Positions 1-30,094 of a stretch of DNA of 64,000 nucleotides are shown in pieces. Positions within the stretch are counted from its first letter, which is position 1. Every line of letters begins with the position of its first letter. Made by a program: the position numbers and the translations under genes. The notes below the pieces were generated by a model. It was not told the origin of the DNA and ran no database searches. It worked only from the letters and a program-made list of their open reading frames with translations. Source of the stretch: Peribolospora baueri (taxonomy: Eukaryota > Basidiomycota > Peribolosporomycetes > Peribolosporales > Peribolosporaceae); contig JAMDHS010000075.1 of NCBI GenBank assembly GCA_029717555.1, forward strand, positions 1 through 64,000, given 5' to 3'.

Positions 1-1150
1 AGGGAGTGAGCCTGGCGTAAGCAGTGGTGGGCGCGAGGCGTCGGCGGAGGCATTGCCACCGGGCGTGAAGTCTGCTGACCGTGGTCCTGAGCAGAACGGA
101 AGCAGAAGGTGCCGGGCTGAGATGTGGTGCGATGAACGCGACGGAAAGGGGAAGACAAGCGCTGCGGTGCAGAAAAGAAGAAAGGAGGTATTTTTTGTAT
201 AATACCAGTAAGGGTTTGATTATATCACCACAGCGCCTGGAACACTTATCTCGGCCGGGAAGCGCGGCTCGACGAGCGTTCCATCCGACTGCCGTTCGGC
301 CCGCAAGAACTTCATCCGCGTCTCCGTCATCCACAGTGGGGGGCTTAGTGGCGTCTTTCTATATGGCCAGGCGGGTACGGGAGTCAGAACCAGGCTGACG
401 GAAGTAAGCGCAACGCTAAGCTAGTGGGACGCCGTCGCCGCTCCACTCGATCCCGCTCGCCGCCGGCACCCGCGTCCGTAGTTCACAGAGAGAGAGACAC
501 TTGTAATTGCTTTCCCTTTCCAGGACTGGAATGTTATTGATGTTAAAGCCAGTCGACGAACGGTGACCATACAGACGAGATCACATGCATCCTCCTTCCA
601 TATTATATGCTGCAGTGGCCTCCCTATAGTCGATATGGCCTTCTTGGCCGCTCGGGTGATGATGGAGCTGCGCTCGGTCATACGGACTGGCCAGCGACGT
701 CGGACGGCGGGCCTCTTCCTCCTCCGCCTTCTTGCCGTCGTGCCCGGTCTCATCGGTACGTTTTGGTTACTCCACAACGCCGTCAAAGGCGTAGGCGGGG
801 AAGGGGAGCGCAGGCCAGGGAGAGCAGAGTTTGCCGTCGCAAGCGTATGGGTGAGCCCCTTGGTTTGTTCATTTGGCTTTGCGTTTTGGAGATGACACAG
901 CTCACGCGCGTTTCAATCCTTCCCTGGACCGCTCTATACCGCAGGCGATGGCGACAGCGCACTGGTGTTTCAACATGACGACGCTCCTCCTCCGTCGCTG
1001 GCTTTACCACTATTGGCTCCTACCTTCTCTCATCCGCCTTCTCTCCCTACAAGCAATCTATTGGCCTCTCACCCGGCTCACTCTTCTTGTCTTCGGGCCC
1101 AACGCCCCCCCTTGCGTCGTGGGTGCTCATTGCGACGACAAGTCTCGTGA
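1..1150. other. No gene recognised; flank of the retroelement
   Basis: Reading frames on both strands are short and show no recognisable domain. The stretch lies directly upstream of the Penelope-like reverse transcriptase frame and may be its 5' part or decayed flank. I cannot mark an element boundary because no terminal repeat or target duplication is visible. Confidence 0.3.
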
Positions 1151-2938
1151 GTGAGAATGTGGCCAGGTAGGTTACGAGCAACCTCGACCAGGGTGCGCAC
1201 GAGGGAACCGGCGTCCGATTCTGGCGCGTACGAGGGACAAGGTCGGCCTGATGCCACCGTCATCTCTGGCAGTGAGCCTGGAGCTGGGAGCGGCGGTGGT
1301 GCGCTGGGACTCTACGCCAGCGCCGTTATGGACACCGACGCCGACGCAGACGTCACCGCCACCGCCACCTCCACCTCCGTACGTTTTCGCAGTCACTTAT
1401 CCACATCCTCACCACACACGCTCTCTCGGACCCAATCCTTTAGACAACCACACACGGCTGCCTCGCGACGGCATGGATCCTATCCTGAGCGGCGGCGCGC
1501 AACCGAGCCGTCCTCTCGACCTCGGCCTCAACTCCAATACCTGCCGGACGGTCAACGAGAGCGGTCGGGGGAAGCACGATTCCGGGCAGCGTCCTCGACA
1601 CCTACACCCTCACCGCGTCGTCCCGGTCGACGGCGGCGACACCTCCCGTGGCCTGAGGTGGTCCGACGGAGCTTGGTGCCCATCTCCGTGTTGACCTATG
1701 CGAGCTTCTGGGTCGTGTTGATAGTTCAGACGTTGGAAAGGGGTGGGGGTTGGCTGGGGGAGATGGTCGAACGGCATCGAACGCCGACACAGCGGCTTTG
1801 CCTTGTATCTGGCGACGTTGAGGCAATGTATCCCTCCATTCCCACTCAGAAAGGGTTGCGAACACTACGCTCCGTCATCTCCAAGTCTGGGTACGATCAA
1901 GGCACAAAGGATCTCATCCTTTCCTTGCTCACCCAAGTCCTCTGGAACAACTACTTCACTTTCTCCGGGGTTACCTACAAGCAAATCCGAGGAACAGCCA
2001 TGGGGATTAGCTGCGCACCAGCGTACGCCAACCTCTTCATGGCTTGGCACGAGCAACAGCTCACCTCGGAACTGCTTCCCCAGGCAAACGTGTTGTACTA
2101 TGCCAGGTACATTGACGATATCCTCGCCGTGGTTGCACTCACAAGCAACCAGCGGAACGAAAATGACGTCCTCGACGTTCTTCGCCCGCTTCTGGCAAGT
2201 ATCCACCCGCAGCTTAAGATAAGCGTTAAAGCTTCCCTCACAAAGCTTGAATTCCTGGATGTGGAAGTGTTTGTGAAGGCCAACCCCTTCACCCACCTCT
2301 CCAACGATGGTCTCGGAACCCGAACCTTCCAGAAGAGTCTTAACGCTTATCAATACATCCCTTGGTCCTCCTACCATCCAGTAGCTGTCAAATCGGCCTT
2401 CATTAAGGCCGAACTGACGCGGTACATCCGTAATGCTTCAGAACTGGCGGACTACTTATCGGTACGTGATCTCTTCTTCCAGAGACTCCGAGCACGGGGT
2501 TATCCCCCTCGGTATCTCAGGAAGGTTTTCCTCAGTCTCAATTACTACGCTCTCCGCGAGCGAGCCCTTTCAGACGCACACCCGGCTGAAAGAGAGACGA
2601 GCGACGCTACGAAACCGCCACCACGACTCGTGCTCAAACCCTTCCCTAACCCCATCTGGGATGGAGTCGATTTGCATCCCGTCTGGGACCTTTACCTCTC
2701 CCAATGGGTTGATCTCGGGTTCGTCCTTCGGGGCATTCGGATCATCAATTGTAAAAGGAAAACACGTAGCCTCGGTGACCTCTTCAACGCGTCAAACAAG
2801 AGATCCATCCAGGGGCATCGCGTTAAACGCGTGCAGTTGGATTATGACCCTAATCCTAATGAACTAGCCACGCGACTCACCGCAGGTACGTCACCTAATC
2901 AATCAGGTGACACGGCGCTCACGTCTATCACGACGTGA
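1151..2938 (+). mobile_element. Penelope-like retroelement (fossil), reverse transcriptase region
   Basis: One frame carries a reverse transcriptase core from about 1780 to 2450. Visible are a palm segment near SGDVEAMYPSIP, the GTAMGISCAPAYANLFM block, the catalytic YIDDI box, a LEFLDVEV segment and an S-x-HP-containing thumb-like region. The GTAMG block and the HP-containing C-terminal part are typical of Penelope-like elements rather than LINEs or LTR elements. No GIY-YIG endonuclease was recognised after the RT, which recalls the endonuclease-lacking Athena/Coprina types known from chromosome ends of rotifers and basidiomycetes. The region upstream of the RT (1151-1780) is low complexity and may not be coding. 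A telomere-like CCCTAA tract lies about 180 bp downstream. Treated as an old copy: the RT core looks whole, but age and activity cannot be judged from one copy. Confidence 0.75.
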
Positions 2939-3120
2939 CCCGGTATTCCCACGGTGAAATTTTTCGCGATCACCACAAGGGAGGGAGCTGATCGTTGCTG
3001 CCTGACGAGCCCTCGGGCGAAACAGCAAAAGCTTTCTGTCGCAGCTTGCTCTTTCTTCTCGTGCGGCTTCGTTTTTTTTGTTCACAGCAACTTCATGGCC
3101 ACCCCCAGTTGACAACAAAA

Positions 3121-3134
3121 ACCCTAACCCTAAT
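3121..3134 (+). repeat. Interstitial telomere-like tract
   Basis: Two adjacent CCCTAA units, read on the plus strand, sit about 180 bp past the retroelement frame. A related tract at 5745-5766 shares the 13-mer CTAACCCTAATCG. TTAGGG/CCCTAA is the usual fungal telomere unit. Only two units are present, so this could be chance or a healed or captured telomere end. Confidence 0.45.
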
Positions 3135-3139
3135 CGCAC

Positions 3140-3980
3140 GGCCCCAGATCGCGGCCCAGCATCTCGGCCGGCCCGCCGGTCCAGGGCAGATGCCGGTTCA
3201 TCCGCACTAGTGGAAAGTCCATCAAATTCTACGTCCACGTTCCTGCTTGGCCTTCATGCCTGGCGAGATGCCAGGATCGCCGCCGGGGGAGCACGTGCAT
3301 GCTTCCTTGCTTGGTTCCTTCCACTCCTCTTTGCACCATCTTCCACATTGGTTCTCTTCTCTCACTCCGTCCAACGAACGGCCGCCAGCTTTTGCTTCAA
3401 ATTTATGATGCACAGTTTCCGCGAAAGCGTCACTCCGGTGTGTTCTTCGAAGCAGCCTGCGATTGGACCCGTATAAATATTGTATTTTCGATTCGGCCGA
3501 TAGATTCGGACGAAATGGATCCGCTGTAAGCTAAGGAAGGATTACAGCCAAGACAGAGTTTTATTCATCAAATCAGTTAAGCAAGAACGAGGACCTGGAA
3601 TTTGACGAGTCCGCGAAAGTATCCATGTGTCAATTGTCAAGCGTTGTGCGTCTGCGATTTGAGCACGTTTTCCAACGCGTTTTGGATTCTCCAAAGGTGT
3701 TTGCTCCGAGCTAAAGACCACAGACGAGTCTAATCAGATCATTTCATCCAGGAACGTGGACCTGGAATTCGATGAACTACGGAGAAGCAAAATCGTCTCG
3801 GCGAATCGCCTGTAGCCATGCAATTGCTACGAAAACGAAATCGCGCTACGACGACGCGGTGAGTCGGACACAAGTGGGCTGTTAAGTTCCCTGCAACGTG
3901 CGTGCTGTGCGCTCCAGCGGCGGCGAGAAGACAAATGGACGTGCGCTGAGGTGAGGGCGAGTGCGCGCAGAGGCACCAGC
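3140..3980. other. Intergenic; imperfect duplication, no gene
   Basis: No convincing gene. Two imperfect direct copies are visible, around 3585-3612 and 3753-3780. They share GACCTGGAATT and would both encode a DLEFDE-like peptide, which suggests decayed coding or repeat sequence. The rest holds nothing recognisable. Confidence 0.3.
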
Positions 3981-3987
3981 ATAAAAG
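3981..3987 (+). promoter_or_regulatory. TATA-like box of the acid phosphatase gene
   Basis: ATAAAAG lies about 75 bp upstream of the chosen ATG at 4059. The position suits a TATA element in a compact fungal promoter. Confidence 0.35.
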
Positions 3988-4058
3988 ACGCTGGCGTAAA
4001 AGGCACCATCTCTGTCGCCTTCAAACCACCCACCTCTCCGGTCCTCCTCGTGCTCAAC

Positions 4059-5309
4059 ATGCGAATCAACGACCGTTCGACCGTTGCGGCTGCCGCTGGG
4101 CTCGCAGCACTGATTGGCAGCACGTCAGGCCAAGGCATTCTTCCGGACAAGCAGGTGCCCAACATCGGTGGCGGCGTCTACAATGCCAGTGATCCCCGGC
4201 TGGCCAACTACACGTTGGAGTTTATTCCGCCGTTTGCAACTAATTACGGCGGGTACTACACGTGGGCGGCCAACAATAACACAGTGTCCATCATGAATGT
4301 CACCGAACTTGTAGCGCCGCTCGGGATCACGAACCTTGGTTCGAACAACACGATGTACTCGTTCTTCAGTATCAGCGAAGGCCAACCGAAGAAGATCACT
4401 CCACCCACGGCTGGACACGGCCACGGCACCGGCAAGTTCTCGAAGATCCTGCACATCATCTTCGAGAATGAGGTGTACGACTGGACGATGAACGATTCGT
4501 ACTGGCAGCTCCTGGCAAAACGCGGGAAGACGTTGACCAACAGCCACGGTGTGACGCATCCGTCGTTGCCTAACTACGCCAGCCTCGTCGCCGGTGACTT
4601 CTTCGGCATCGCGCACGAGGATTTTTACAACATCAATGCTACGACCATATATGACCTGCTCGACGCCAAAGCTCTTGACTATGCTACTTATGTGGAGCAG
4701 TACGTACCCGTCGCCACGGAACGTGGCCCCAACGACTGCAACAATGCGATGTTCCTAGGGCCTCTGGACAATACCAACCCGGATTGGAACAGTCCGGTGT
4801 ACCGCCGTTTGGACGTGCCTCCGCTGTTGTTCTCCACGTACACCAGCAACTACACTCGCTGCAGCAAGATCTACAACGCGACCGCGCAGTTTGATGCCGA
4901 CGTCGAGTCGCACAAGCTGCCGCCCTACTCGTTCTACGTGCCGGACATGCTTCACAACGGCCACGACCCCGAGTCGGACAGCGACTACGCGCACCAGCCG
5001 ACTACCTCTGGCATCTGGTTCAACGCCTTCCTGGACATGTACCTGCCCGCGTTGACAGCTCAGGGTACCCTGGTGGTGGCGACCTTTGACGAGGCTACGT
5101 GGCAAAACGACAGTGACTCTGTGCCAAACAACAACAACCACATCGCCACTCTGCTGTTCGGCCATGGCATCACTCCGGGCACCAAGGACGACACGTACAT
5201 TACCCACTACGGCACGATGCGGGGCACCATCACCAACTTTGGCCTTGGATCTCTCGGACGCAACGACACCAATGCCACCAACGGTGACTTGTCCTTGTTC
5301 GTTCACTAG
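4059..5309 (+). CDS. Secreted acid phosphatase, phosphoesterase family (PF04185-type)
   Basis: An intronless 416-aa protein of the fungal acid phosphatase/phosphoesterase family, which releases phosphate from organic monoesters outside the cell. The ATG at 4059 is chosen because it starts a signal peptide: MRIN, an Ala/Leu-rich core and a likely cut near TSGQG. The frame extends further upstream without an ATG. Family landmarks include the HIIFENEVYDW segment, the HPSLPNYASLVAGD block, a YVPDMLHNGHD segment and FDEATW near the C-terminus. There are many N-x-S/T sites, as expected of a glycosylated secreted enzyme. Homologues in moulds are phosphate-repressible; no regulatory site is claimed here. 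It stands alone between two gene-poor stretches, and its lack of introns contrasts with its neighbours. Family confident, exact substrate not. Confidence 0.88.
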   Translation: MRINDRSTVAAAAGLAALIGSTSGQGILPDKQVPNIGGGVYNASDPRLANYTLEFIPPFATNYGGYYTWAANNNTVSIMNVTELVAPLGITNLGSNNTMYSFFSISEGQPKKITPPTAGHGHGTGKFSKILHIIFENEVYDWTMNDSYWQLLAKRGKTLTNSHGVTHPSLPNYASLVAGDFFGIAHEDFYNINATTIYDLLDAKALDYATYVEQYVPVATERGPNDCNNAMFLGPLDNTNPDWNSPVYRRLDVPPLLFSTYTSNYTRCSKIYNATAQFDADVESHKLPPYSFYVPDMLHNGHDPESDSDYAHQPTTSGIWFNAFLDMYLPALTAQGTLVVATFDEATWQNDSDSVPNNNNHIATLLFGHGITPGTKDDTYITHYGTMRGTITNFGLGSLGRNDTNATNGDLSLFVH

Positions 5310-7240
5310 GAGGATGTACACGGTGTCAGCGGATGGACATCTTTCCGTTGACCGGCGCATAATATCTATCCACTCTCACTGACACGCCGTGGAAGTGGAT
5401 CATACCCCGTTGTTAGGAAAGGCTCCACACGACGCATCGCTCTACGCGAGCGTACGCGCAATATGTGTACCGTAGTTGGCCTGTTCGGCCATGTTGCGCG
5501 CAGCAGTCTCGGGCATGCGATGGTGAGGAATACCAGCCTTTACGTCGATCGTCCCTATCACATTAAGGCGAAGGGGGCCGAAGACATGGAGAGGGCCAAG
5601 GCCGCTGTCGCGGGCACCCTTGCGGGCAAAGGGGCAGAGAAAGGCGGCAGCGTGTTGGGAGGCAAGGACTACCTGAGCTTGTGGGAAAATGCCGGAGAAG
5701 AAGAACTGGAATGCGGCCTTCAGGAACGCACGGAGGCACCCTTTCCCCTAACTCTAACCCTAATCGTAAGCGGCCTAGACCTCTGTCCCGTCCAATCTTG
5801 ACTCCCGACAGATCTGCGGCCGACCCTCGACGCATCCGTCTCCTCGTCTTTGCGCTCGAGCGCGACGCCGGCTCGAACGCGCCCAAACCGTGGTCGAGCT
5901 TGCAGCGGTCCGAGAGGAGCCCCTCTTCTGTGCTTTGCGACCTGTCCCACTTGGCCCAGACCGGTCATCCTCGTCTCATGATCGCTTGGCACTTTGTAGG
6001 CTTGAGGTCATATAGAAAATATAGAGGTCATCAGCCATGCGGCGACGTCCATCGACGTGTAGGCGGCGGAGACACTTACTTCTCGCAGGGCTTGGGTTAG
6101 AGGGGGTTTAAGATTGTTATTCTTCTGTTCCCACTGAAGGGTTGCGTGTGTTAGTTACAGGACGAGAGGAGATCAAGCGAAGAGGAGTGGAGCGGGAGAG
6201 TTATGTCGGTAGAAGGTGAGTATGGAGAAGCGACGCGAAGTGTTATGTGACGCATCCAGGTCAAACTGGGCACGGCCATGTTACGGGAACACCAACGCCT
6301 ACACCGCACCAGCCGCAGCGATCGAGACATGGTTCGCGATGCACTCCCTCCTTTCCGTATGCGTTCTTCCTTTTCCCCCTCTCCCACATGAACTCCTTCA
6401 TCCATTCCCTAGGTCTCCTATCGTCGCTAGGACAGGCCCCAAACTCCTTCTTTTCCTCTTTCCCCTCGTCCTTTTCCCTTCATTCACACTCTCCTTCGGG
6501 TCGCCGCGCGCTGCCTTTCTACCACGTGCTGGCAGACCGATGTCACACGATGGCACTTAGAGTTAAGGTAGAGTTCAACATCGGAAGTGCCTAAGGTTGG
6601 CCGGAGGAAGCGGTAACTCTTCGCCCACGCGATCTATTCGCGTGACGTTTGATTTACGCGAGCATCTATGCGGACATGTGAGCGCTGGCGAGGAGTCCAT
6701 ATGTCAGAAACGGAGCTGAGGAGGACAGGGCAGGCGGCGCAGGAGCTACCCAAGGACGACGGACGGAAGAGGAGAAGGAAGATAGGCGTTGAGACAAGGA
6801 CAAGATTTGCAGGGACGAAACTAGGGGCTGGGTACAGGAAGGAGAAGCTAGGGGGTGAAACCGGGAAAGGAGAAAAAGGGGCTCGGCTTATATATACCTC
6901 ACAGGGGAAAGTCTGATGCGGTCCTCTTCTGCGGGGAACGCCCGAGGGGAGGCAGGGGAGAGCCGAGGGGGGAGACGGGAACAATGAAGGGTCACCAGAA
7001 CAATAGGGAATACGCCGCAGGCTAGTGGCCACTAAGTCGTGGGGGTTCCACGTGCAGCGCCTGCACCATGCTGCGGCCTAGCGATCATGCAGGGTCGTGA
7101 CAGTGAGCCACTGTCACCGGGAAGATTCACTTGTAGTGCTTAGTCAGCCGAGTGATCGGGACCGCGGGCATGCTCAGACCTCGTCTCTCCACCTCGAAGC
7201 GCCGACGAGGTGCTCGTGAGACAATTGAGAGCACCTGAAG
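5310..7240. other. Intergenic, no gene recognised
   Basis: About 1.9 kb with only short frames and no domain on either strand. It contains a second telomere-like tract (5745-5766) and a TATATATA stretch near 6889-6897. It may include the 3' end of the phosphatase transcript and the upstream region of the ligase gene. Confidence 0.3.
5745..5766 (+). repeat. Second telomere-like tract
   Basis: CCCCTAACTCTAACCCTAAT: three CTAA-type units, one imperfect, ending in the same CTAACCCTAATCG 13-mer found near 3123. Together with the retroelement it gives the left end a subtelomeric look. Confidence 0.35.
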
Positions 7241-10200
7241 ATGTCCCAGGCCACACAGCCAGGCCAATTGCAGCGCGAGGACTCGCTCATTCAGATCGAC
7301 CCGGTACGCGGCGATAACAAGTATGGCGATGCCGGTGGCGGTGGCGGCGGCAGAGACGGCGGCGACGGCTTTGGAGGCTTCGGTCTCGACGACCTCGACG
7401 GCGCTGGAGGGATCCGCCTGGAAGAGGAGATGGAGCGCCCCCCAGAGTGTGTTAACTTTAGTCCCACGCCGAACTTTCACGTCCTTGTTGACTTCCTCGA
7501 GGCGGTGATCAAGGACAAGCCTGAGAAGCAGAGAGTCAGGTTGGAAAGGTTGTTCGAGGTCAGTAGGAGATGAGCTCCTCGATGGCTGCTTTGGTAGATG
7601 GTGGCTCACCCTGAGTGTCCGTACATCTATGCACTCATTCTTTCTATGGCCTCGGCTTGCTGAACCTATGAATTTGACCTCCGGAAGAACTGGAGGGCAA
7701 AAGTCGGTCCGGATTTGTACCCTCTGGTTCGGCTGCTCATCCCGGAGGTGAGATAGCCTTCCGCTCAGCGTTGCACACTTTGCCTTAGCGTTCGCGCTGG
7801 CCAAGGTGCTCGTCAACGTGCTCGGGCTCGACCCGAAGAAGAGCGATGCGGCTCAGAGGCTCATTCATTGGAAACTGCCGGCGGTCAATAAGGACAAGGT
7901 GAGTTGTTTGAACGGTGCTTGGAGGCGTTTGTCGCGCTCGGGGACTCAGTCCCTCCTGGCGCGAACGGCTTCAGTTCAGCAACGTGGGCGACTTTACGGG
8001 GATAGCGTACGAGATTGTCAAGGAGCGCGTGCCGACAGTGGGCGAGGGTGAGCTGGATATCACCAGGGTCAACGAACTTTTGGATGAGCTCAGCTCTTAC
8101 AGCAAGTCGTGAGTGCGCGAAGGCATCGGCGTGATAAAGTACCCTTCACCGAGTCCTTCGATCTGCTCGCTCCTTCAGAAAAGAAAAGCAGGACGTTGTT
8201 CAAGAGTTCTGCAACAGGCGTACGGCAGAAGAGATCAAATGGATTCTCCCCATTGTTCTCAAAGTAAGCGGCGTAGGCAATTTGCCGGTCGCTTCTGACG
8301 GCGTACAGCCTGTGTCTGATCGAGGGCCGCCATAGCACCGGTCCGGCCGATATCAGACCTCCGGATCACTGTTAGGGAAAAGACCATTCTCCGCACGCTG
8401 CACCCGGACGCCAATGACTGCTTCAATGTGTGCTCCGATCTCAAAGTGGTATGCTGGAAGCTGTACGACCTGAACTATCGGATGCCTCACGAGGTGAGTG
8501 CCGCGCCATCTATCTTACTTCTCCCGGAGCGAGCCAAGTGATTGTACCGTATTACGCCCACCATGACGGTAGAAAAAAGCAGTCGAACTCGGCAAGTGCT
8601 TTCTTCCGATGCTCTGCAAACGCAACATGCGCGATTTCAACGACATCGCAACTCATGGTTGTGGGCACGGCCTGGGTGGCTCGAGAGACACGGCTGAGCA
8701 CGACGTCGTACCGCTCTGACCGGTCTGCCAGTTCAGGGAGTGGCTCGGGATGGGACGGGTTTTTTATCGAGGAGAAACTCGACGGAGAGAGAATACAGAT
8801 GCACAAGAATTGGCGGCAGTTCGATTTTTGGTCACGGTGAGCTCTCAAACAGCAGTTTGTAACCCTGAAACTTTGCGGCTGACCCTTCCTTTCTCCGCTT
8901 CGCAGGAAAGGCAAGCACTACACATATTTGTATGGACGGAACGGCAGGAGCGGGTCTCCAACACCTTATATCGAGGACAAGTTCAACAAAAACGTCGAGA
9001 GGTGAGATGAGGCATTGCCCCACCTTTCGCTTCTTGGCTAACAGGTTTTGGGGTGACACGACCATTGTAGCATCATCTTGGATGGAGAAATGCTCGTCTG
9101 GGATCCGCTTCGAGGAATGTTTCAGCCGATTGGCAACCTGAAGACCGCTGCTCTTTTTATGTCAGGCTCGCGCTTTGATGCGTTGATCGACCTACTGACT
9201 CTGACCTTCCTGGGTTTCTCTCGCTGTTGCAGACACGTCTGACGACTCTGACAAGCCAACACCGTGCTGTACGTCAGCGATCTCGCACTACTGTTATTTA
9301 TTTTTGCTGACACCTTGCCTCCTGCATCTCGTCCATCAGTCAAGGTATTTGACGTTCTCTACGTGAATGGAAAGACCCTCTTACATATGCCTCTTTCCGA
9401 GCGCAAGCGCATCCTTCCAAAGCTGGTGACCGAGGTGCCTCGAGCTCGTCCTGACGATGCGCGGGAGGTCGGGGGCGGACATTCGAGACGCTCTCGATAA
9501 GGTCATGGCTCAAAGGTAAGCCTTTCTGACGTCCTCTGCTGACGACGCCAGCACAGCTGACCTCATCTTCCGCCCGGTGAAAGAGTAATAGGAGAAAGGC
9601 TACCCTTTCGAGCCGGGGCCCTCTGCTCGTCAGACTCTTCGTCCGCCGAAGACCCACGATCGTAGCCAGGCTCCGCTTGTGTATCCTCCGTGGCAAACAC
9701 GAGATACCTGATCATGAACCTGCCTGTCAGTAAACGCGGCTATAGCGTCCGTTCCCACAGGAGGAGCCTACTTCTTTCTGAGAGGCAGCAGTCTGCCGCG
9801 CTCAATGGAGCCCAGGATCCAGTCCGGATGGATGATGTCATGCTCCCCCTTCTCTTTAATCTTTCGAGCTCGTAGCACTGTAAAATCGAAATAGGAAATG
9901 TCATGACCTGTCAAAATGCTTCAAACGGGGAGAACCGTCTCTACACGCACTGTTATCGCGAGGGCAGATGGCCCAGCAAGGCGGTACGTCCGCACCATTC
10001 TTCGCAGTAGGCAGTCGCTGAGTGAAATTGCCTCCATGCTGAACGATGAGACGTTCGAGCGTCTCCTTGTCGTGCTCGCGTGTCCCCTCGAGGACGCCTG
10101 TCAGAGGGACATGCCGAAGTCAGCCTCTCGGTCATTGTAGACAGGCGAGCCGCTTGAACGTACAGAAGAGCATGCTTTCCTCCTTCCCATCCTCCTCTTC

Positions 10201-12445
10201 CGCCTTGAACAGACTGGACGTCACTTCTACGTCGTCCACGCTAGCTCCGTGGAACTCGCTCGCGATCTTTGCCCTTTTCTGTAATGAGATTAGGAAATGT
10301 CTTGGATTAGGATTGCGAACGTGGTGCTCCTAGCTCCGACGACACTTGCCTTTTGCGGGCCACCCTTTGTGACTCGCTGCTTGAGCATGCGTTCCTCCAT
10401 GTCTTCTGTGACCTTCCGCTTTGGCGCACGCTGCAATTCAAAAAAATCTGCCACAACAGGAGAGAACCGTCAGTTCTGAGTGAGGGAATGTCCCGAGATG
10501 GGGCGGATGCGCGTACCGTTCACCGTCATACATGTGGAGATGTCCTTGTCCTCTCGGATGCGTATAGCGCGAGGGAAGCGCATGGTGTAACCCATGGCAA
10601 AGTCGGCACATCCGATGATCTCGGAAGATTTGACCTCGAGAACGAAGGAACTGAAAACGCAGAAAAGAGTCGTTCGGCAACTGTCTATGCAAATTTCAAA
10701 AGAAAATGCTCCTCACTCCTTAGGCGAGATCCACAAATCCGGACGATCTGCTGAATTGCCGCTGAACACCAGTCCGTTCGGGGGTTTGTTGGGATTGAAC
10801 TTCTTCCACTTGTCCGAGGTGAGCTCGCTGATCGGATAGAGTGAAAGGATGAGGCGGAATCTCGTGAGCAGATGAACAGGACAGTTTACCATAGCTTGAC
10901 AAGGAGGCTAACTTTATTCGATCATACTCCTCTACGCTAAGACCTCCGCCGACCTTGACGAGCGACATAAACCTGAAGGACAGGGGTGGGTGAGAACAGG
11001 TCTCCATGGAGCGTTGCCCTCACTGGGACGGCCTGAACTCACTCCGGCTCATCCAAGGAGGAGTTGTTCGTCCGGAGACCATCAATGAATGAAGACAGCC
11101 TGCCGCCTCGCTTGCCCGAGCCATACGTAGCGCCTTGAAAGGAAATCCAGACGGACGTCTTCAATAGGACCGTCGGCAACATATCGCAAAAACCTTACTG
11201 ACCGATAACCATAACATCCACGTTCTCGCCCAGCTCATCGATATACTCGGGCTTGACTTTGATCCAAGTGTTCTCGCGACCATTGAGAACGTATTGGCTC
11301 TTTGGATCTTTGACGATCAGCCCCTCTCCCCTTGCCACAGCAGAAATCGAGTCTGAGGAGCATCGGTCGTCGCCCTCTGACGATGACGAAAGCCGCGAGT
11401 GGATCCACGTCCGTCCTTCTGGCACTGCGGCGTCTCGCGAGGATGAAGCTACGGTCGGCGGTCCGGCCGCTAGAACACCCTTGTCTGACAGCGATACGGA
11501 AGATGGAGGGTCTGCAGGAGAATCGCATCCGAGAAGCCTCACGGTCTAGGGCGGAGAGGAGGATATGACGACGTTAGACGATGCAGAGCTTCGGGACTTC
11601 AATAATCAGCGACGCTCTTTACCGCCGCAGGCGGATGTGAGCATGCCATTGCTTTTTATTCACGTCAACCTTGAAAGGCTGATCGCGCCACCGTCTCTAT
11701 TGGCCATTCGACCACGTTCAGGAATTCCAGCCGCAGCGGGAAGGACAGCCAAAAGCATTGGTCGACGAGCCTCGTATGGGCGAATCTGCGCAGGCGCGAG
11801 AGTACGATGAGAACATGATCTTCCGGCATCTGTGAGCTGAACTTTGCATTAGGACCGGATCCCCGGCGATTATCGACTGGTTAAAACGTTATTTTCTTTC
11901 CTTTCTTCTTGTCTACTTTGCCTCAATTTTCTTATTTGCTCTCGTGCTGCTTTTCCTGCAGCGTCTTTTACATGGACTCTGCATATCGAGACGGAGGACG
12001 ATGGCGGGACTTTGAAAAGGTCAGTTATTCACGTACACCATGTGCCCTGTCAGCCTGCCTGGCCCAACGATGCCGATCGTCGTTCGTCTCTCCTTTTCCC
12101 AATAGCCTCTCCGAAGCAGCCGACCTCCTATCGAGAAACGGCGGGGTATTAACGAGCAACTTGAAGGAACCCAAGCTGACGCACATCGTCGTCAATGAAG
12201 ACAACACCGATCGAGTGTACGAGCTGGTGAAGCTCACGAGCTTGCCGAAGCGGAGGCATGTGGTGACGACCGACTGGGTGCATGGTGAGCTGCTGTGTGG
12301 GCCTTGCGTTCCTTCTCCGGTTCAGCGTCTGTCGTCCTCAGTCGCGCTTCACTCACTTCTTCTGTTGCTTTGCTTGGTACGTTCCGCAGATTGTCTCAGA
12401 GAGGGCATGCTTTTGGGAGAGAGATCATATGCACCAGAGTACTGA
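7241..12445 (+). pseudogene. LIG4: DNA ligase IV, rearranged by an internal inversion
   Basis: ATP-dependent DNA ligase of non-homologous end joining. Plus-strand exons 7241-7558, 7688-7747, 7806-7898 and onward encode the N-terminal DNA-binding part (NWRAKVGPDLYP; CNRRTAEEIKWILP), the active-site motif EEKLDGERIQMHK with the catalytic Lys, and the DGEMLVWDP motif, up to DALDKVMAQR at about 9515. The next part (motif GEGLIVKDP, YGSGKRGG, MRFPRAIRIREDKD, first BRCT domain) lies on the minus strand at 11330-9600. The linker and second BRCT return on the plus strand at 11341-12445, ending SYAPEY. The parts are collinear with normal Lig4 only if 9557-11330 is flipped back. In addition, splice phases do not close near 8.27-8.36, 9.15-9.24, 9.44-9.47, 10.82-10.90 and 11.14-11.20 kb. 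One intron in the flipped part is of GC-AG type. The gene is probably non-functional, but an assembly error cannot be excluded. Confidence 0.85.
9557..11330 (-). other. Inverted 1774-bp segment of the ligase IV gene
   Basis: Left edge: the plus-strand intron that follows DALDKVMAQR ends with a perfect acceptor (GCACAG, 9551-9556), but the next bases are the reverse complement of a different intron. Right edge: the first base of the GEGLIVKDP exon on the minus strand abuts CTTGCCACAG (11331-11340), a plus-strand acceptor for the acidic linker exon at 11341. Flipping the segment rejoins both introns with closed phases: MAQ-R-GEGL on one side and ARK-AEIESEEH on the other. The exons and splice sites inside are well kept, so the event is recent or artefactual. 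Confidence 0.8.
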
Positions 12446-12953: not shown

Positions 12954-15900
12954 ATGCTCACCAACGCTGGCCGAGTCGGTCCGAGGCCGGGTTCGGCGTC
13001 GGTCCCCCCTCAGCATGAAGGGCCGAGCCATACATCTGATGACGCTCAATCCAACGGTCAAGACTCGGAGACCGGCAGCAGCAGCCGCGCTCCTCGGCCC
13101 GACACATCCTCGCCAGGGCCGGCCACGGTTGGCTCGTCTTCCGTAGACGTCGTCGACCTCGCCCTCGTTCAAAGACTGCTCGCCACGGAGGAGCGCGCCG
13201 TCAGCAGCGTGGGCCCCGACAGGAAGGTGAGCTGCCTCGCATGTAGGGAGTCCAAGGTCAAGTGCTCCGGCGCTACCGAGGGCACCTGCGCCAGGTGCAA
13301 GCGGACGGGCAGGGAGTGCGTGTTTGAGAAGCACAAGAGGGGCAGAAAACCGGACAGGTTGTGAGTCTATCTCAGAAAGCCCGCTCGCCTTGGTCCACCT
13401 GTGACGCGTGCTTGAAGACTGTTGGGAGCATACGTTTTCTGAACGTCTTTGCTCCTTGGCCACATCATTTCGCAGGAAAGTCCAACGCATCGAAAAATCG
13501 TTTGACACCATCGCCAAGGCTCTTGGCGAGCTACGAGAACTTTCGTCGTCCTCGTCTGCCGTTTCCTCCGGCATATCGGCGTTGGTCAATTCTCATAGAG
13601 ACAGCTTCGATGATGGAGCGAGGTCGAGCAAACAAGAATCAACGGGGGCCTCGTTCTTCCTCCAACGTCCGCCGTCACCCGAGTCGCTCGCCAGGCACGC
13701 CTCCGGGACAGGCCAATCCCCTCCAGGGCGTTCCGAGTCTGTTCAATATCCACCGGCGCCGTCCTCTTCTGCCTTCCCTCATGGTCAACGGCAAGAAGTC
13801 TGCTTCAGATCGCCTCAGCTGCCTTCACCTTCGAGCGCAAGGCGTACGTCAGCCGGCGCCCACGGCTTTGGACGTCCCGACCCCAATCACTCTCGAGAAG
13901 ACTATCATGCTTCCTCACACCATTACCATCGCTTGTCTATTTCGTCATCGTTCTTGGCTCGTCCACCTTTCCACTCGCCGACCCAACAAGCCATCTCTCC
14001 TCATCCGTCTGCCTCGTCCGGCCCATCTCCAGCATCGGCCACCTCGCTCTCGGGTAGCATGCCGTTTCCCTCGGCCATGTCAGCCTCGCCTGGCCCGGCA
14101 GCCCGCCGGTCGTATTCTCCGTCCCTGTCTCCGCCTCGTTGGGTCCGACACAAGCATCTCGTGGACGACGAAGGCGATTCCCATTCAGAGGATCAGACCT
14201 CGATGCAGACGCTGAGCAACCCTCTGCGATTGCTGGCCCAGGCGAGCGAGACGGAGCGGAGGGAAAAGGAGAGGACCCAGGACTGGTCAATGGGCCCCGA
14301 GGGCGACAGTCACGCTGAAGGCCCTTCGTCGATGGATATCGACCCTTCTCTCGGTGAAGGCAAGGGGCCCCCGTCTGACCGATCGGGAGCGCAGCCAAGT
14401 CGAGAAGATGCACAGCCCACCGTTGCTGCTCAGACACGGTCCGGTGCCGGCGTCGCGGGACAAGCGTACTTCAGGAAGAGCATCTTCCATCCCGTCCTCG
14501 ACAACGATGACCCGCGCTTGGACCCTATCGAGCGTGGTTTGCTGACCGAGGAGACGGCAGCAGAGTTATTCGATATGTGAGTTCAGCCTTCTTCTTTGAC
14601 GATTTTTCATTTATTCTCTTGGGATTCGTCTGATATTTCGTCATCCCACTAGTTTCTACGAGCATCACAATCCAATTCTCACCCTCCTAGACCCCTACCT
14701 CTCGACGCTTGCCTACGTCCGTTTCCACTCCTCTTTCCTCCTCTCCGTTATATGCTCCCTCGCTGCCCGCTACGACCCATCCCCTGACGCTCCCACTCTG
14801 TCCTCCTCCCTGGACGAGCACATCCGCCGCGAGCTCATGCCGCGCGTTCTATGCGACGGGTACAAAAGCGTGGAGATTGCTCAGGCTTTCGTCATCCTCG
14901 CTGCGTATCATCCGGTCGCTGATAGCGTCGTCGGAGATAGGACTTGGGCGTACTTAGGCAATGCAAGTGAGCGGTGCTGCTGTGGTCGTATGTCTCGCGG
15001 CCGGACAATTTATTGACGACGACGCCCTTCCTTCCGGTCTTCCGTCCGATTTTCTCTCTAGTTCGCATTGCCACTGAACTTGCGCTTAACTCAGGTATCC
15101 AATCTTACCTCGCGCCGAACGATGAGTTGTTGCAACGCCAGCTGAGGAACCAGGAACGACTGTGGATGAACCTTTTCCTATTCGAGAGAAGGTGAGCTCG
15201 TCGGATCGTGAGGAGTTGAAAGCGTGCGTTGCTGACTTTCCCGTCCATGAAATCAACTTGTGAATCGCCAATCGATGGTATCAGCCTCGCCTCCCAGAGC
15301 GGGCGACAGTGGACGCTCGGTGACGACGCGGTCATCAGGAGCTGTGCGCGGTGGCACAAGCGCGAGTTTGCGATCCCAGAAGACGAGGCGCTAGTCGCGA
15401 TAGTGGAGCTCAGAAGGATTATGGTGAGTCTTCCGATTAGCTGTCCGACGATGACGGGTTAAAGTGATGTCGCCATGTGAGGTCATATGCGAAGGATAAT
15501 ATCTGTGCTGTCTCTCCAGTCGCACCACCACGGCGCATTCAACACCTACGTCCTACCCACCCTCACCCCTCTCCGTCCAGGCTACGTGTCACGAAGGGTA
15601 TCTCCTCTGCCGTCGAACCATGACGCGGAAGGGTCGAGTGAGGTGGCGAAGCATTTCGAGAAGCAGTTCGTGTGTAGGTCGAAGCACGAGGATTTTCAAC
15701 TGGAGTTCTATCGTCGAGAGGTCAACGATGACCTCGAGCGATGGAAAAAGACTTGGTGCGAGCGGGGGGCGGCGACGCGTGAGTCTCGTTTCCATATTCC
15801 CACTCCCAGGCGACTTGCTCGTTTCCATATTCCCACTCCCAGGCGACTTGTTCGTGGGGTGTCTGTTGACTTGTCGCGGATCTTTCAGCAACCGCCTACC

Positions 15901-17408
15901 GCCTCGCTAGAACTGGCAAACTCTATCACGCCTATGCCCAGCTCATCACCCTCTCCCTCCCCCTACGCTCCAAGATCGATGACGAGGCGAAACATCTCGC
16001 GCCCTTCTACCGGGATTGCTACGCTGCCGCCGTCGGCTATCTCAGCCTCTTCTTGGACAAACTCGGACCAGATAAGCTGACTTACATGAGCAACTCGAGC
16101 GTCGTGACTGCCGTGTACTGCGCTATCTTTGCCTTGAGAGTGAGTTTCTCTTTGACGGCATCCTCTCGCCGACTGCTCCTGCGGCTCATGTCACCTCATT
16201 TCGCCCTGTCACAGCTCTCGTCCTTATCACCCCAAACATTCCGTATCATCTCTCCTACCCGCGTCAACGCTCTGGTGCGCTTGCTGGCCGAAGCTCTGGC
16301 CGTATCCGGCCGCACGCCGCCTCATCGAACGACTGCAGTGTCGTCGTCGTACGCCGACTTTCTGTTTGCTGTCTTGAAAAGATGGGAGAATCGAGACGAT
16401 GTGGTGAAGCGGGCGGCCGCTGCACCTGTCCGAAAGGCGACGAGCAAGGCGACTCTGTCCGGCAGCAGTCCGAGAATGGCCAAAATGGAGGACAGAGCTG
16501 GAGGGAGCTCATCGGCTCTGCAGGATACTGGTGACGATGTGCAGTCCGACGGCAATGTTCCGCGAGAGAGTTTGAGCGGTTCGGCCGACCTGCAGTCACA
16601 CTCGTTCGTGGACCCCGGCCCGGAATCGTACGGCCGAGAAAGGGCATCGGTTGGCACGCCTTTCCAGCCTCTCTCTTCTGCCGGCCACGCCAGTCTGCCC
16701 GGCTTCAAGCCTCCAGCTGGTGGCGCTTCCCAGGACGCGGCGGACGTGTCGAGGTCATCTAACGTCTCCTTCGGCACGCAGGCGGGCGCGGGAGCCCGAG
16801 GCGACTCTCAACTCTTCAACGCCCCCGTTTCCATGCCGCTCTCCTCGTTCAATGGCCTCGCTAACCCATTCTCCTCCGTTCCCTCCGCGCCTTCGACTGC
16901 GCCCGCTTCAACTGGCTGGCCACCGCCACCGCCCTTCCCAGGTGGCGGAGGAGGAGCGAGTCTGAATCTGGGCGAAGATCCGAACTTGTCGAGTGGTGTC
17001 ATGGCAGTGGGAGGCGCGGGAGGGGAGCCGCGGGACTGGCTCTGGGGGGTGGATCTGGCAGGACAGAGCAATGAGATGTTGGGTGAGTGCGATGTGCTTC
17101 CTCAGAGTCGTCAGGTGCGAGTGGCGTGTCCTGATCGTCCGCCTTCTCTTTCCTTCCTTTCGCTCCGCTCTTCGTATTCAGATCGTCTGGTCCGGGAATC
17201 GCTCTTTGGCGAAATGTCTGCCCTCTTCCCTTCGGCCCCCAGTTCACCCGGCCCAGGCTTCAGCGGCCTGCCACCAGGTACAACTATAAGTGGTCCGATG
17301 GGCGGTGGTGGCGGTGGGGCGCACGGACAGGCGACGATGGCGTACTTCGCTCCGTCGTTCCCACAGCACCAGCACGACCAGCAACAGCACCACCGACATC
17401 AGCCTTGA
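12954..17408 (+). CDS. Zn2Cys6 fungal transcription factor
   Basis: A nine-exon gene whose phases all close: 12954-13360, 13476-14576, 14653-14966, 15062-15191, 15285-15423, 15520-15778, 15889-16139, 16215-17082, 17182-17408; 1231 aa. Near residue 95 is a binuclear zinc cluster: CLACRESKVKC, a short loop, then CARCKRTGREC, followed by a basic KRGRK linker and a likely short coiled segment (VQRIEKSFDTI). A Ser/Pro-rich stretch follows. The central region, from FYEHHNPILTLLDPYL through TYVLPTLTPL to about residue 850, looks like the fungal-specific regulatory (fungal_trans-like) domain. The C-terminus is Gly- and His/Gln-rich, suggestive of an activation region. It should act in the nucleus. 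The target pathway cannot be read from sequence, and no neighbour suggests one. Intron 6 carries a tandem duplication. Confidence 0.85.
15784..15850 (+). repeat. Tandem duplication inside intron 6 of the Zn2Cys6 gene
   Basis: A unit of about 33 bp containing TTTCCATATTCCCACTCCCA occurs twice head to tail with almost no difference. It lies wholly inside the intron 15779-15888 and does not disturb donor or acceptor. Confidence 0.8.
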
Positions 17409-17984
17409 CCTGATCGAGGCGAAAGCACATGAATTGCCCGCGGGGGAGATGTGAGGCGAGACGGCGAGGGTCGAAGGGGCGAGAGCGCGACCATGTCCAC
17501 GGGCGTGGCCGCGGTCACCAGGAGATGGGTCAAGAGGAGCGAAGGACGTGCTCAGAGGCCATTGCGGCGTGTTGAAATCGTTCCTCGCCGGTCCACGCCC
17601 CGGTGAAATTCAAAGCAAAGAAAGAGACGATCACGTGTGCTGCAGTGCCGCTTCGTCGGCCCGATGGCGATAACCTGTCCAGGGACCGAGGTCACCTGAA
17701 CGGCAAGTGGTGGACGTCCTGTCGCCCTGGAGAACGCCGGGCTGCGGTCGGCTCGGCGAGTGATCGGCGGGCCGGACCGAGAGAGGAAATCGCCGAGGAC
17801 CGCAGTCGACCTCAGCGGCGGGGTGCGTTGGTTCCGGCCGGGGACGAGGCAGATGGAAGAGGGGAGAGGGGGTATATAAAGATATGGATGTGGACGTGAT
17901 TAGCTCCTCCTCACCACGCCGTTCCTTGTTCCCTTTCAGTTGTACTGTATCTTTACTGCCTTAGCATCCTTCCTCGTCCTCTCC
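17409..17984. other. Intergenic, promoter of the DUF1479 gene
   Basis: No gene recognised in about 575 bp. The only clear element is the TATA box at 17873, about 110 bp before the next ATG. Confidence 0.35.
17873..17881 (+). promoter_or_regulatory. TATA box of the DUF1479 gene
   Basis: TATATAAAG, a near-consensus TATA element, lies about 110 bp upstream of the ATG at 17985. Confidence 0.55.
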
Positions 17985-20193
17985 ATGCTCATCGCGTCCA
18001 CCCGCCTCCGCGTCGCCGCTAGGTGTCTCCCGCGGCAGCAGATCATCTCACTCCACGCTTCTCATCGCGCTTCTAATCCAGATGTCGTCCCACACGATGA
18101 ACCCCTCTTCCCCCGCTACGTGCCCCTCGCCTTCCACCGCGATCGCCAGCAGGGATCCATCGACGCCGTGTTTCCCAGCCTCAGCGGCGAGCCCACCGCC
18201 GAGCTGCCCGAGCGCTTTGCCGAGCTCAAGCGCGCGCTCGTAAATGGGGAGACGAGGCGGAGGCAGGTCAGGCAGATGTGGACAGATGTACTGGCGAGGG
18301 TTAAGGAGGACGTGAAAGAAGTCGTCGAGAAGGGGAACCAGGTGAGCTTCCGTTCGTCGGTCGAGCCACACCATCTTTCTTTCTTTCATGACACCCTCTT
18401 CCTCCTCTACTATAGATCATTCCCCAAATTCGCTTTTCCGAGCTTGCCCCCACCACCTCCTCCCCCTTTGGCTCTCTCTCCGACTCTGCCAAAGCAGAGA
18501 TTAAGCGCCGGGGATCGGTTATTATCCGCGGCGTCGTGGATCCGGAGGTCGCTCTGCGTTGGAAAGAGGACGTGCGGGAGTACGTGAGGAAGAACCCGGA
18601 GGTCAAGGGTGGGTGCCGCGATAGCGAGTCCGGCCCTGAAGTCATCTTTTTGGCCGTCCGTTTGCTCCGTTGTGACCTACCCAACCTTCCTCATCAATGA
18701 ACCCACGGCACAGGTTTCCCGGCCAACGATCCCCAGGTCTACGAGCTCTACTGGTCGACGGCGCAGTTGGCCGCTCGAGCGCATCCCAACGTCCTCCACG
18801 CCCACCGCTGGGCCCTCTCTCAGCTCTGGCACTCTTCCGACCCGCTCTCCGAGGTCAGCTTGGGAACGCCTATTTCCTATGCGGACAGAGTGAGGATTCG
18901 GACCCCCGGTGATGCCGTGTTCGCGTGAGTGGCGCCATCGGCCCTAGATTCCTGTTGAATCCTTCGGTTTTACTGTGCTCATCTTCCCTTCCCTCTCGCT
19001 CGCTCCAGCCTCGGGCCCCACATCGACGGCGGCTCCCTAGAGCGCTGGGAAGATCCAGGCTTCCGCGCTTGCTTCAGCTCCATCTTTCAAGAGGCATGGG
19101 CGGGCAGTGCAGACGGGCTCGACGAGCTGAAACCGGACGTCTGGACAAGGCACGACCCTTGGGATGCCACGCCGAGGTTGACGGCTCAGGTCGACCTGTA
19201 CGGTGGTGCGGGTGCTGTGAGTAGACAAGAACGGCCCTGGTCGATGGGCTGCTCATTCGAATAGGTAAGAGATGAGACTGACTCGTCTGGAATTTTAGTG
19301 CTCCATGTTCAGGCCGTTGCAGGGATGGCTATCGATGAGCAGCACCGGCCCGGGCGAGGTGTGTCCTTACCGTAACTTTCGGCCTGAGGCTGCGCAAACG
19401 CGCTGACCAACCGCTCTTGTGGCCACTTACTGTCATTGATCCGCACTCCAGGGAACTCTACGCCTGCTACCCTTCCTCGTCTCTTCCACAGCATACCTCC
19501 TTCTGCGCCCATTCTTTCGTCCGCTCCAACCGCTCCTCTCCCCCTCCTCCCCTTCCGCACGCTCTGACTTTCTGGCAGACTCCAATTGGGTCCTCGACCT
19601 CGACTCCACCTCGTTTCCCGGCAGCAACCCGGGATGTTCCCAGGAACTCAGCGACGAGACGCACCCGCATCTCGAGCTGGGCAAGAGCATGGTCAGCGTG
19701 CCTAAGGTGGAGCCTGGTGACGAGGTGCTGTGGCATTGCGATACGGTTCACGCTGTTGGTGAGTCGTCAATGTGATCGGGCTGCGCACGAGCCGGCAGCG
19801 ACGACGACAGACCATCTTTCAGCAGTGGTTCTCGGAAACGTCCAGGCTGATGCCGCGTCCCACTTCCTATCCCTTCCAGAACCCCATCACAACGGCAAAG
19901 GGGACTCTTCAGTGATCTACGTTGCCCCGATCCCCCTCACCATCCACAACGCTGACTACCTCGGCCGCCAGCGAGACGGCTTCTTCTCCGGACGCCCCGG
20001 CCCAGACTTCCCAGGCGGCGAGGGCGAGAGCGGATTCGTTGGGCGCGGCAGACACATGGACGTGAAGGGACAAGATGGGAGGAGGGCGATGGGGCTTGAG
20101 AAGTTTGTCGTCACGGGTGCGGAGGGAAAGATGATGGAGGGAGAGAAAAGGGTCGTCGAGGCGGCCAATAAAATGCTTTTTGGAAGTTCCTGA
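17985..20193 (+). CDS. DUF1479 family protein, 2-oxoglutarate-oxygenase-like
   Basis: Seven exons with closed phases: 17985-18341, 18416-18608, 18714-18924, 19009-19216, 19299-19358, 19452-19758, 19880-20193; 549 aa. It matches the DUF1479/YbiU-type family, whose members look like Fe(II)/2-oxoglutarate dioxygenases of unknown substrate. Supporting blocks are IKRRGSVIIRGV, HRWALSQLWH, LGPHIDGGSLERWEDP (candidate metal-binding H-x-D), the TLRLLPFL segment and DEVLWHCDTVHAVEP with later His residues. The first 30 residues are rich in Arg, Ala and Ser without acid residues (MLIASTRLRVAARCLPRQQ) and resemble a mitochondrial presequence. In some yeasts a family member is induced by galactose; nothing here shows that. 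The next gene, GCN20, converges on it. Enzymatic role is inference from fold family. Confidence 0.8.
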
Positions 20194-20599
20194 AGGACAG
20201 TTGGGAAGATCATAACGCAGGGCGCTCGTGGTTAGGATGCGCGCAGTTCGCCTGCGATCCGTACAATTTTTCTGTTTCGCCTTTGACATCTTTTTGCCAA
20301 TCTGAAACCGCATGGGGGTCGATTTCTCCAAACTGGACTTTATGCAAGACGGCAGTGGTACCAGGAGAAGGTTGCGTACGGTAACACAAGAGAAGATGGC
20401 GTGCGACAGGACGCGTCAGGTAGTGAGAGCGGATATTTGTCCTCGCCATCGATTTTATTGCTCTATTCTTCCAGTACAAAAGGACCCAAGTCTATCGAGG
20501 GGAGATAGTAGGCAACACATATTATGACTGCATCTGAATAGATTGAAACGAAGGCGCGGCGGAGGCGCTCCTTCATCTGAAGCGAACTCGGGCTCGCGC
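20194..20599. other. Convergent intergenic region
   Basis: About 400 bp between two converging genes. Presumably it holds both 3' ends. No gene or repeat seen. Confidence 0.4.
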
Positions 20600-23500
20600 T
20601 TAGGCGGTGACCTTGATATCATTCGTGTTCTGCTCCAGGATCATGCGCTTATACTCGCTGACGTCGCAATAGAGCTTCTTGACCGTGCCGTTGCCGGTCA
20701 TCCACTAGAGATGGAGAGAACGACGAGAATCCGGTTAGGAGCGAGGACGGTGGAAGTGAGAAAGACTGTTATAGAGTGAGCGAGCGGAACGACACGAAAG
20801 ACACTCACGAGCTCTTTGCAGCACCTGTTGATGAACGTCTGGTCGTGAGAAATGACGATCACGCCGCCATTCCACGCGTTGATCTGGTGTGTGCGGGTGC
20901 GCGGGACAGTGGCCGTGAACTCAGTCATGGAAGCATTAAACAAGACGAAAGGAAAATCTGGACAGGAGACTCACAGCTGCCATTAGGGCGTCGAGGCCTT
21001 CGATGTCGAGATGGTTGGTCGGCTGATCCAGCGAGGCGTCGCATCAAAGGCAGCTATATTCAGTCATCACGTTCATAGGAGCAGACGAGGGCCTAAAGAC
21101 TGGCAGGTTAAACGAGCGAGCCTCACCTCGTCTAGCAGGAGCACGTGCGGCTTTTGCAAGCTCAGTTGGGCAAACGCAACCCTGCTCTTTTGACCACCGG
21201 AGAGCGTAGCAATCTTCTGCAACCCCGTCATACCAGTAATGCCAAACGCGCCGAGATGAGCCCTGTACTCCTGCTCGGTCTTGCCGGGGAACTTGCTGGC
21301 GAGGAAAGCGACGGGGGACATGCTCAAGTCGAGCTGATCGATGTGGTGCTGGGTGAAGAAACCGATGCGGAGACGGCTGTTGCGCTTCACATCGCCTTTG
21401 AGCGGCGAAATTTGGCTTATGAGCAGCTTCATCCTGGGATGGCAAGAAGAAAATAGCGGACCGAAAAAGGTGGAAGGGTTATCCATGAACGACTACCCTT
21501 CCGAGAAGGAGGAATGTCAACTCACAATGTGGACTTTCCAGCCCCGTTTGGCCCGACAACAGCGACTCGACTGTCCATGCCCACATCAAAGTTGACTGTA
21601 ACCATGAAGGCGGCCGCAGTTAGCGCCGATACTTTACGAGAGCCTGAGCATGCGGAAAGGCTCACTATCGCGAAGAAGAATCCGATCCTTGTCGTAACCG
21701 AAGGTGACGTTATCCAGCTGAAGGAGCGGCGGAGGCACCTTCTCGGTTTCGGGGAGACTAGTAACCGAGGAGATGTGACGGTATTCAGTCACGGCTTGCA
21801 CCTCGTTGACGATCGTGGCCAGTGTCTGCTCCGTCGAGACTCACCTGAACTTGACGACATCATCCGCCTCAGGCGGTTCTAGGTCGGGCAACTTTTCAAG
21901 GATCTTGATTTTGCTCTGCGCCTGAGCGGCCCTATTCGCGTTGTACCTCCACCGGTCGATGAACGCCTGAAGGTGCTGACGGTACTGTAGCTGAGTCTCG
22001 TATTCGCGCTGCTGATTCTTGCGGCGTTCCTCGCGCGTCTCGTAGAACTGGTCAAAGTTGCCCTTGTAATAGTCGAGACGCTCGGAGTGCTGGTGGATGA
22101 TGTCCGTCGCGACCTGATTCAGGAAGGCTCGGTCGTGAGAGCTGTCGGCACGTACAGTGGTGGAGGTAACATTGTAAGAGAAGCGACGAAAGAAAATCAA
22201 GTCAGGTCCGTCAAACGATCACTCACACGACCAAGAGAGTGCCAGCCCAGGACTGCAGATAGTTTTCGAGCCAAGCGATGGCATTAAGATCAAGCATGTT
22301 GGACGGCTCGTCGAGCATGAGCAAGCTGGCAAGGCGCAAATGAAGTGGCGGGCGTGAGCGGTGGGAAAACGACGCCTGGGAGATGATCGTAAAACTCACT
22401 CGGGCTTGCAGAACAGCGCTCTGGCGAGCGCCAAACGCATTCTCCAACCTCCGGAGAAATTCTTGGTCGGCTTCTGCTGATCTGCCTGGCTGAAGCCGAG
22501 GCCTGCAAGGAGGCTCGCCGCCCTGGCGGGACCGGTTTCCGCCTCCATCTCGACGAGCTTGTTTTGCACCTCTCCCAGCCTCGCCTGCAGTTCCTCCCTC
22601 TCGTTCTCCTTCTGCCGCGTGGGAAGATCCAAAGCATTCGCCTGACCTTCAGCGGAGGACAGAGTTTGTTCGATCTCCGTGAGCCTGGCATTGAGGTCGC
22701 GCTCCTCGCTGAGTAGCTTTTCTCGCCAGACGTCTGCCCGCAGCACAGCTTCGAGAGCTGGAGTGTCGTCGCCCGCGATCTCCTGCTCAACGTAGAGAAG
22801 CGTAATGTGCATCGGGATGGGCACCTCGCGCAGAGCCATGTGGCGCAGAAGAGTTGACTTTCCGACACCGTTGCGACCTGCGGTGAAAAAACAAAACGTG
22901 ACGCTCGTTGTGAACGCCGTAGGCCAAGGACGGAAACCAGACGCCTGCTCACCGATGAGACCGTATCTCCTGCCATGTGCGAGGGTGAGGGACGCGTTGG
23001 AGAGGATGCGGTTCGAGCCAAAGTTGACGTCGATGCTGGGCAAATGGATGTCCTTGTTCTTGCCTTTGGAGGAAGCCATGTCAAGCGGGTTGACCTTGAG
23101 GAACATTTCCTCATAGCTCTGCTGCTTTTTGGCCGCCTCGACGAGCTTAGAGCTCTCGTACAGGTCGCGCTGAGCGCGCTTGGCGAGCTTTGCTCGAGTC
23201 TTGGCCTCTTGTTTTTCTGCTCAACCGCCGACTGTGAGCATTAGCACAAGCTAGCATTCGCGAGTCATTCTACGGCGGTGACTTACCGAGCTTTTTGACG
23301 TCGACTGTGGTCCTACTCGTGCCCGCCTTGCCACCGAGGCCGAGATCGACGGCGTCTCCAAAGCCCATCGTCTTGCTCAACTCGGTCTTTTTCATGTCCA
23401 CCACTTTGTCCAGCCTCATGAGCCCATTCTGGGCGCTATGGCCGCGCGAGCCGTTTTTCTCCTCGAGGATGATAGCGATTTGCTTGCAGACGTCGTCGAC

Positions 23501-23868: not shown

Positions 23869-24054
23869 TTTCCATGAGTCGAACCTATCTGCTCGTCGTT
23901 CGTTGTTGGTAGTCGGAGACGGAGAATGCGAAATGATACGGGCGCGGGCCTTGTCTGCCGCAGCCTTTACGAGCGCTGGCTGCCGATCACGACGGCCGCC
24001 GCTGGAAAGGCGACGACGGACGGCCCATTCCGATCAGTCCGAGGTCCGTTCACG

Positions 24055-25047: not shown

Positions 25048-25158
25048 CGACGGTATGCGCGGGCCATCCGTCGGCGGACGGATGGACGGTCGGTCAGCAC
25101 GTCCGCTTGTGGAGCGACGGCATCACTCTTCCTGTTCGTCCTCCTCCTTCTTCCATGT

Positions 25159-25554: not shown

Positions 25555-25559
25555 GATTG

Positions 25560-29725: not shown

Positions 29726-29837
29726 TCTGTCCCAACGCTATTATAGCCATACCCCGCCGTCCTTACCTCTCTCCGTCTATCACCGTACCGTGTCCTGTCC
29801 TGTCCTGTCCTGTCGTATCGATCAGCCCCGTAGTGCC

Positions 29838-30092: not shown

Positions 30093-30094
30093 CG

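Follow-up and report, generated by a model that had tools for sequence, protein, structure and literature searches.

The window analysed here, the first 64 kb of contig C151 (95,711 bp) in the 22.14-Mb, 178-contig assembly of the basidiomycete Peribolospora baueri, holds near its left end a copy of the DNA ligase IV gene (LIG4) in which an internal segment of about 1.77 kb lies in reverse orientation; such an inversion had been put forward in the original prediction from the letters of the window, and it is present in the assembled sequence. Comparison with the other copies in the assembly suggests that this gene is very probably a duplicated LIG4 pseudogene, set in a subtelomere-like mosaic and flipped by break-and-rejoin, with a separate copy supplying the function. 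The comparison draws above all on two loci, on contigs C84 and C53, which came up when the assembly was queried at DNA level with the inverted segment and with the LIG4 5' half, and which are 92-96% identical to the window copy, depending on the piece.

In alignment with C84 and C53, the left breakpoint falls at about 9573/9574, with a few intron bases lost at the junction, and the right one near 11338/11339; the inversion thus stands, while the ends originally given for it, 9557 and 11330, were off by 8-17 bases. On both C84 and C53, exons 11 and 12 are collinear on one strand, with a short intron between them (67 bp on C84); this bears out the first predicted junction (MAQR-GEGL), phase included. 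The right junction (ARK-AEIESEEH) has a GT donor, an AG acceptor and phase 1 and is consistent on paper, with no uninverted comparator spanning it among the copies found in the assembly. Of the two intronic breakpoints that had been claimed, the left is hence seen against the other copies, and the right we infer. The divergence of the inverted piece from the other copies is similar to that of its flanks, for which reason the piece appears to belong to this locus. In scans that cover the fetched letters rather than the whole genome, the longest exact repeats across the two junctions of the window are 11 and 10 bp, and the exact inverted match between the segment ends is no longer than in shuffled sequence, as is the case for all four flips tested (see below). 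A site-specific or repeat-mediated inversion was rejected on this last ground.

The gene itself is LIG4, judging by its closest relatives. An adenylation-domain test, applied to the C84 protein and to window exon 12, placed them closest to DNA ligase 4 and not to ligase 1 or 3. For exon 12 (43 aa), DNA ligase 4 is the best PDB relative (9e-6), and a 44-aa catalytic C-terminal piece inside the inverted segment matches PDB DNA ligase 4 at 8e-6. For pieces of both BRCT domains, Pfam BRCT models give values between 8.5e-4 and 0.014, none of which reaches the curated cut-offs, and the 178-aa open reading frame (ORF) holding the BRCT2 piece has no Pfam family at 0.001. Once the segment is reversed, the domain order would be that of eukaryotic DNA ligase IV, namely N-terminal, adenylation and C-terminal domains, BRCT1, linker and BRCT2; in contrast to that system, however, the window copy is spread over two strands and is damaged at several further places.

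This further damage had escaped the original prediction, as had the other LIG4 copies. Relative to the open C84 copy, the window copy carries inactivating lesions of the kind looked for in a pseudogene: frame-shifting indels of 2 nt in exon 7 and 8 nt in exon 11, the loss of the splice donors after exons 5 and 9 and, compared with both C84 and C53, a deletion that removed the exon-3 acceptor together with the first 39 nt of exon 3. The linker exon has in addition a probable in-frame stop near 11547, a place for which there is no open copy for comparison. In the C53 copy, five indels were counted against C84, four of them frame-shifting and one in frame, and the alignment of exon 13 ends at 71 of 91 nt. 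In codon differences from C84, 34 synonymous and 34 non-synonymous changes were counted over 587 codons of the window copy, and 25 and 16, respectively, over 592 codons of the C53 copy. Of 606 codons, 573 could be aligned across all three copies and were used to polarise the changes (one further site differs in all three); the ratio of unique non-synonymous to synonymous changes (N:S) was 21:16 for the window copy, 5:5 for C53 and 11:20 for C84, with a neutral expectation of 2.6-3.4.

As for the functional gene, the C84 copy is open over 14 exons and 615 codons, with AG/GT at all 13 introns, up to the contig end, which cuts it in exon 14. Since a first gene model contained stops, the exon boundaries of this copy were adjusted manually so as to maintain the frame, and its openness is therefore partly built in. 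Independent support for the gene model comes from the C84 protein, which matches DNA ligase 4 in PDB at 3e-86, compared with 5e-43 for ligase 3 and 9e-29 for ligase 1, and in which the Pfam ligase N-terminal and adenylation domains are present. C84 probably holds the working LIG4 gene. C84 and C53 begin with exactly the same 127 bases and then diverge, and the two contigs may represent two arms of a short-read graph at a shared node; a graph break at such a node would explain the common LIG4 endpoint, and the rest of the gene might have been left unassembled. Contig C53 ends in TTAGGG repeats, and its LIG4 copy lies about 22 kb from that telomere. Fragments of LIG4 occur at two more places. 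The first 386 bases of C126:1-2871 equal window 10415-10030 at 99%, a BRCT1-side fragment broken inside BRCT1, and are followed by a 97-98% copy of window 4442-5752. A fifth LIG4 locus, C146:29902-30458, is an 85% copy of the LIG4 5' end and the DNA upstream of it, broken inside exon 2.

Here we propose that LIG4 was duplicated into rearranging, subtelomere-like DNA, where the duplicate would have lost constraint and then gained frameshifts, splice-site losses, the deletion and one in-place inversion, some 1.77 kb long and running from intron to intron. Two double-strand breaks most likely gave rise to it, and the middle piece between them would have been religated in reverse, with a few bases lost and without a flanking inverted repeat, presumably by end joining. 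LIG4 function would come from C84, either as such or as the 5' portion of a complete gene. The original prediction had considered the end joining of the organism to be probably abolished by the flip, which is not supported: the uninverted C84 copy is open over the exons seen, the window copy would be broken even without the flip, and there is thus no sign of a loss of DNA repair. The inference of a fungus without end joining is thus removed, and in its place stands a fungus with multicopy LIG4, the flipped copy of which would be debris.

Could the inversion instead have been produced by amplification or assembly, either as a small misoriented piece or through chimeric molecules? The assembly is fragmented into its 178 contigs, and C84 and C53 share their first bases as at a short-read graph break. 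Chimeras from whole-genome amplification are often inverted; a single chimera, however, would fold back and not swap a segment in place. A repeat-mediated misjoin was rejected since no exact repeat longer than 11 bp was found at either window junction within the fetched letters, and a scaffolding gap error since neither the window nor the fetched stretches contain N characters. The divergence of the inner piece, matching that of its flanks, likewise argues that it is native to the locus. It had also been anticipated that a second intact LIG4 copy elsewhere might account for the window copy through its reads; uninverted copies do exist on C84 and C53, but as the copies are about 4-8% different inside and outside the flip, their reads would not explain the locus. 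On these grounds misassembly looks less likely than a real rearrangement, and we regard an artefact as unlikely.

A reading in which the window copy serves as the LIG4 gene of the organism, and its inversion abolished classical end joining, is quite improbable in view of the 615 open codons of C84 and of the several other lesions in the window copy, even though the linker and BRCT2 were found in no other copy. A switch, programmed or recurrent, that turns exons on and off would be in keeping with two LIG4 copies that carry different intron-to-intron flips, all four breakpoints being intronic, but is hardly credible, as the ends have no inverted repeat beyond shuffles, the window and C53 flips share no breakpoint, and both flipped copies carry other inactivating lesions.

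Several observations nevertheless weigh against a decayed duplicate that is backed by a functional copy. Read in the frame of C84, neither the window copy nor the C53 copy showed an in-frame stop in exons 1-14, and the small indels of the window copy could partly be sequencing errors. At 1.3, the N:S ratio of the changes that the window copy alone carries lies below the neutral value, so that part of its branch seems to have evolved under constraint; the copy would have lost constraint only some way along its branch. C84 breaks off in exon 14, which leaves no full-length intact LIG4 among the copies found, and searches of the assembly at DNA and protein level yielded the BRCT2 side in no copy but that of the window. 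Finally, no telomere repeat is present in the first 400 bases of C151.

Table 1. Coordinates of the probable LIG4 pseudogene and neighbouring features in the window.
Feature	Position	Strand	Basis or remark
LIG4 pseudogene exons 1-11 (N-terminal and adenylation domains)	7241..9515	+	exon-by-exon alignment to the open C84 copy
Exon-3 deletion site	7789..7794	+	~0.1 kb lost compared with C84 and C53
Segment inverted in place (exon 12 through the last BRCT1-side exon)	9574..11338	-	
Exon 12 (EGLIVKDP, TWIKVKPEY)	11203..11330	-	
Exon 13	11043..11133	-	alignment to the C84 copy
Exon 14, portion common to the C84 and C53 contig ends	10894..10972	-	window reading extends a few bases further
Catalytic C-terminal piece and BRCT1 pieces	9600..10650 (approx.)	-	Pfam below curated cut-offs; PDB match
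Linker and BRCT2 piece	11339..12440 (approx. end)	+	
Segment duplicated on C126 at 97-98%	4442..5752	+	
Reverse-transcriptase element, one of several dispersed copies or fragments	1783..3131	+	RVT_1 at 1e-7 (ORF)

By its matches, the left 11 kb of the window is a mosaic of dispersed duplicates. Positions 1-7239 gave 35 matches including itself, with C12, C109, C77, C172, C37, C123, C55 and C167 among the contigs matched, and several of these matches abut to the base. Relatives of the reverse-transcriptase element at 1783-3131 occur on C12, C37, C77, C109 and others, with pieces on C37 that lie 1.4-4 kb from telomere repeats, and a relative of window 712-1783 lies about 6-7 kb from telomere repeats on C172; further relatives of the mosaic are found far inside contigs (e.g. 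C123, C77 and C55). The control stretch 13000-32900 gave 38 matches, of which 4 exceed 100 bp (94% for two on C142, 73% and 68% for the other two), and a single short repeat of about 50 bp accounts for most of the remainder; this control is weak, given that its self-match does not appear among the rows and that scores cover 36 of 37 candidates, and long matches were possibly missed. Going by this subtelomere-like content, the start of C151 is probably subtelomeric. Within the mosaic, window 1-3133 is a patchwork of dispersed duplicates with base-exact abutments that includes the reverse-transcriptase element. From its motifs this element may be Penelope-like, the computed match being to RVT_1 only. 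The C12 copy of the reverse transcriptase has no PDB match at 0.01, and Pfam searches with three C126/C84 ORFs and with C12 stretches gave no matches.

The inversion in the window is not the only one of its kind. When the fetched letters, in 34 sequence pairs with 39,947 pairwise aligned bases, were scanned for triplets whose middle member is reversed, three complete in-place flips emerged, in 3 of the pairs; the window flip, seen through one comparator junction, is a fourth. The scan was sampled around the LIG4 finding and its pairs overlap in content, and it gives no genome-wide rate. The junctions of these flips are joins with few bases lost. Between C53 and C84, a flip of 664 bp (C53:1890-2554) extends from intron 1 to intron 4 of the C53 LIG4 pseudogene, and the longest exact matches spanning its junctions within the fetched letters are 10 and 10 bp. 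Between C84 and C88, 389 bp on C84 (C84:8498-8886) are flipped, and since C144 agrees with C88 at one flip end, C84 is probably the derived form. The flip between C12 and C77, 970 bp on C12 (C77:110452-111431), lies inside the reverse-transcriptase element; at one flip end the order on C12 agrees with the window and C109, at the other with C37, which makes C77 the derived form. Twin priming during retrotransposition is an alternative for this case, which is accordingly weaker evidence for break-and-rejoin. A fold-back was also seen at C77:112016.

The two LIG4 flips have four breakpoints, every one of them intronic (three seen, the fourth inferred), against about 1.5 expected from the 37% intron share of the gene part on C84. 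The chance of intron-only breakpoints is about 2% for four and 5% for three, a pattern that was noticed post hoc and is left unexplained. It is possible, if rather doubtful, that this genome flips duplicated, partly subtelomeric DNA in place (0.4-1.8 kb, few bases lost, no flanking repeats) unusually often, with LIG4 copies among the substrates. Were such a micro-inversion rate general, duplicates would offer many base-precise inversion junctions for studying break rejoining, and sets of paralogues would represent a base-resolved record of break-and-flip repair in this fungus. Short inversions are reportedly a common rearrangement of gene order in yeasts and other fungi; those are said to involve whole genes, whereas the flips described here, of 0.4-1.8 kb, lie within genes or elements.

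The setting of the window copy resembles that described in a survey of Hemiascomycetes (PMC2876123), in which decayed yeast gene copies are grouped near chromosome ends, in the subtelomeres, and those located there stem mostly from species-specific duplications. The word 'inversion' was not found in the main text of that survey, whereas here an in-place inversion would be part of the decay. Among open-licence papers, none was found on subtelomeric micro-inversions in fungi, and none of the matches listed was by its title on subtelomeric or duplicated LIG4 pseudogenes in fungi; a search for microinversion together with end joining turned up only a fly inversion and a plant mitochondrial insertion. 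With regard to Penelope elements at basidiomycete telomeres, the relevant passage of PMC7473861 only counts Penelope families.

Several minor features were seen in addition. A putative Zn2Cys6-like stretch was read by eye near 13.2 kb of the window, which, like the TTAGGG telomeres and the intron density, points to a fungus. Window 48505-49326 contains short repeats in both orientations that are common to C146:25995-26230. Imperfect palindromes of 88% and 85% are present at C84:4370-4581 and C146:27021-27397, respectively, and C172:70579-70825 and C119:150663-150900 share two adjoining pieces at 99-100%, one of which is flipped on C119.

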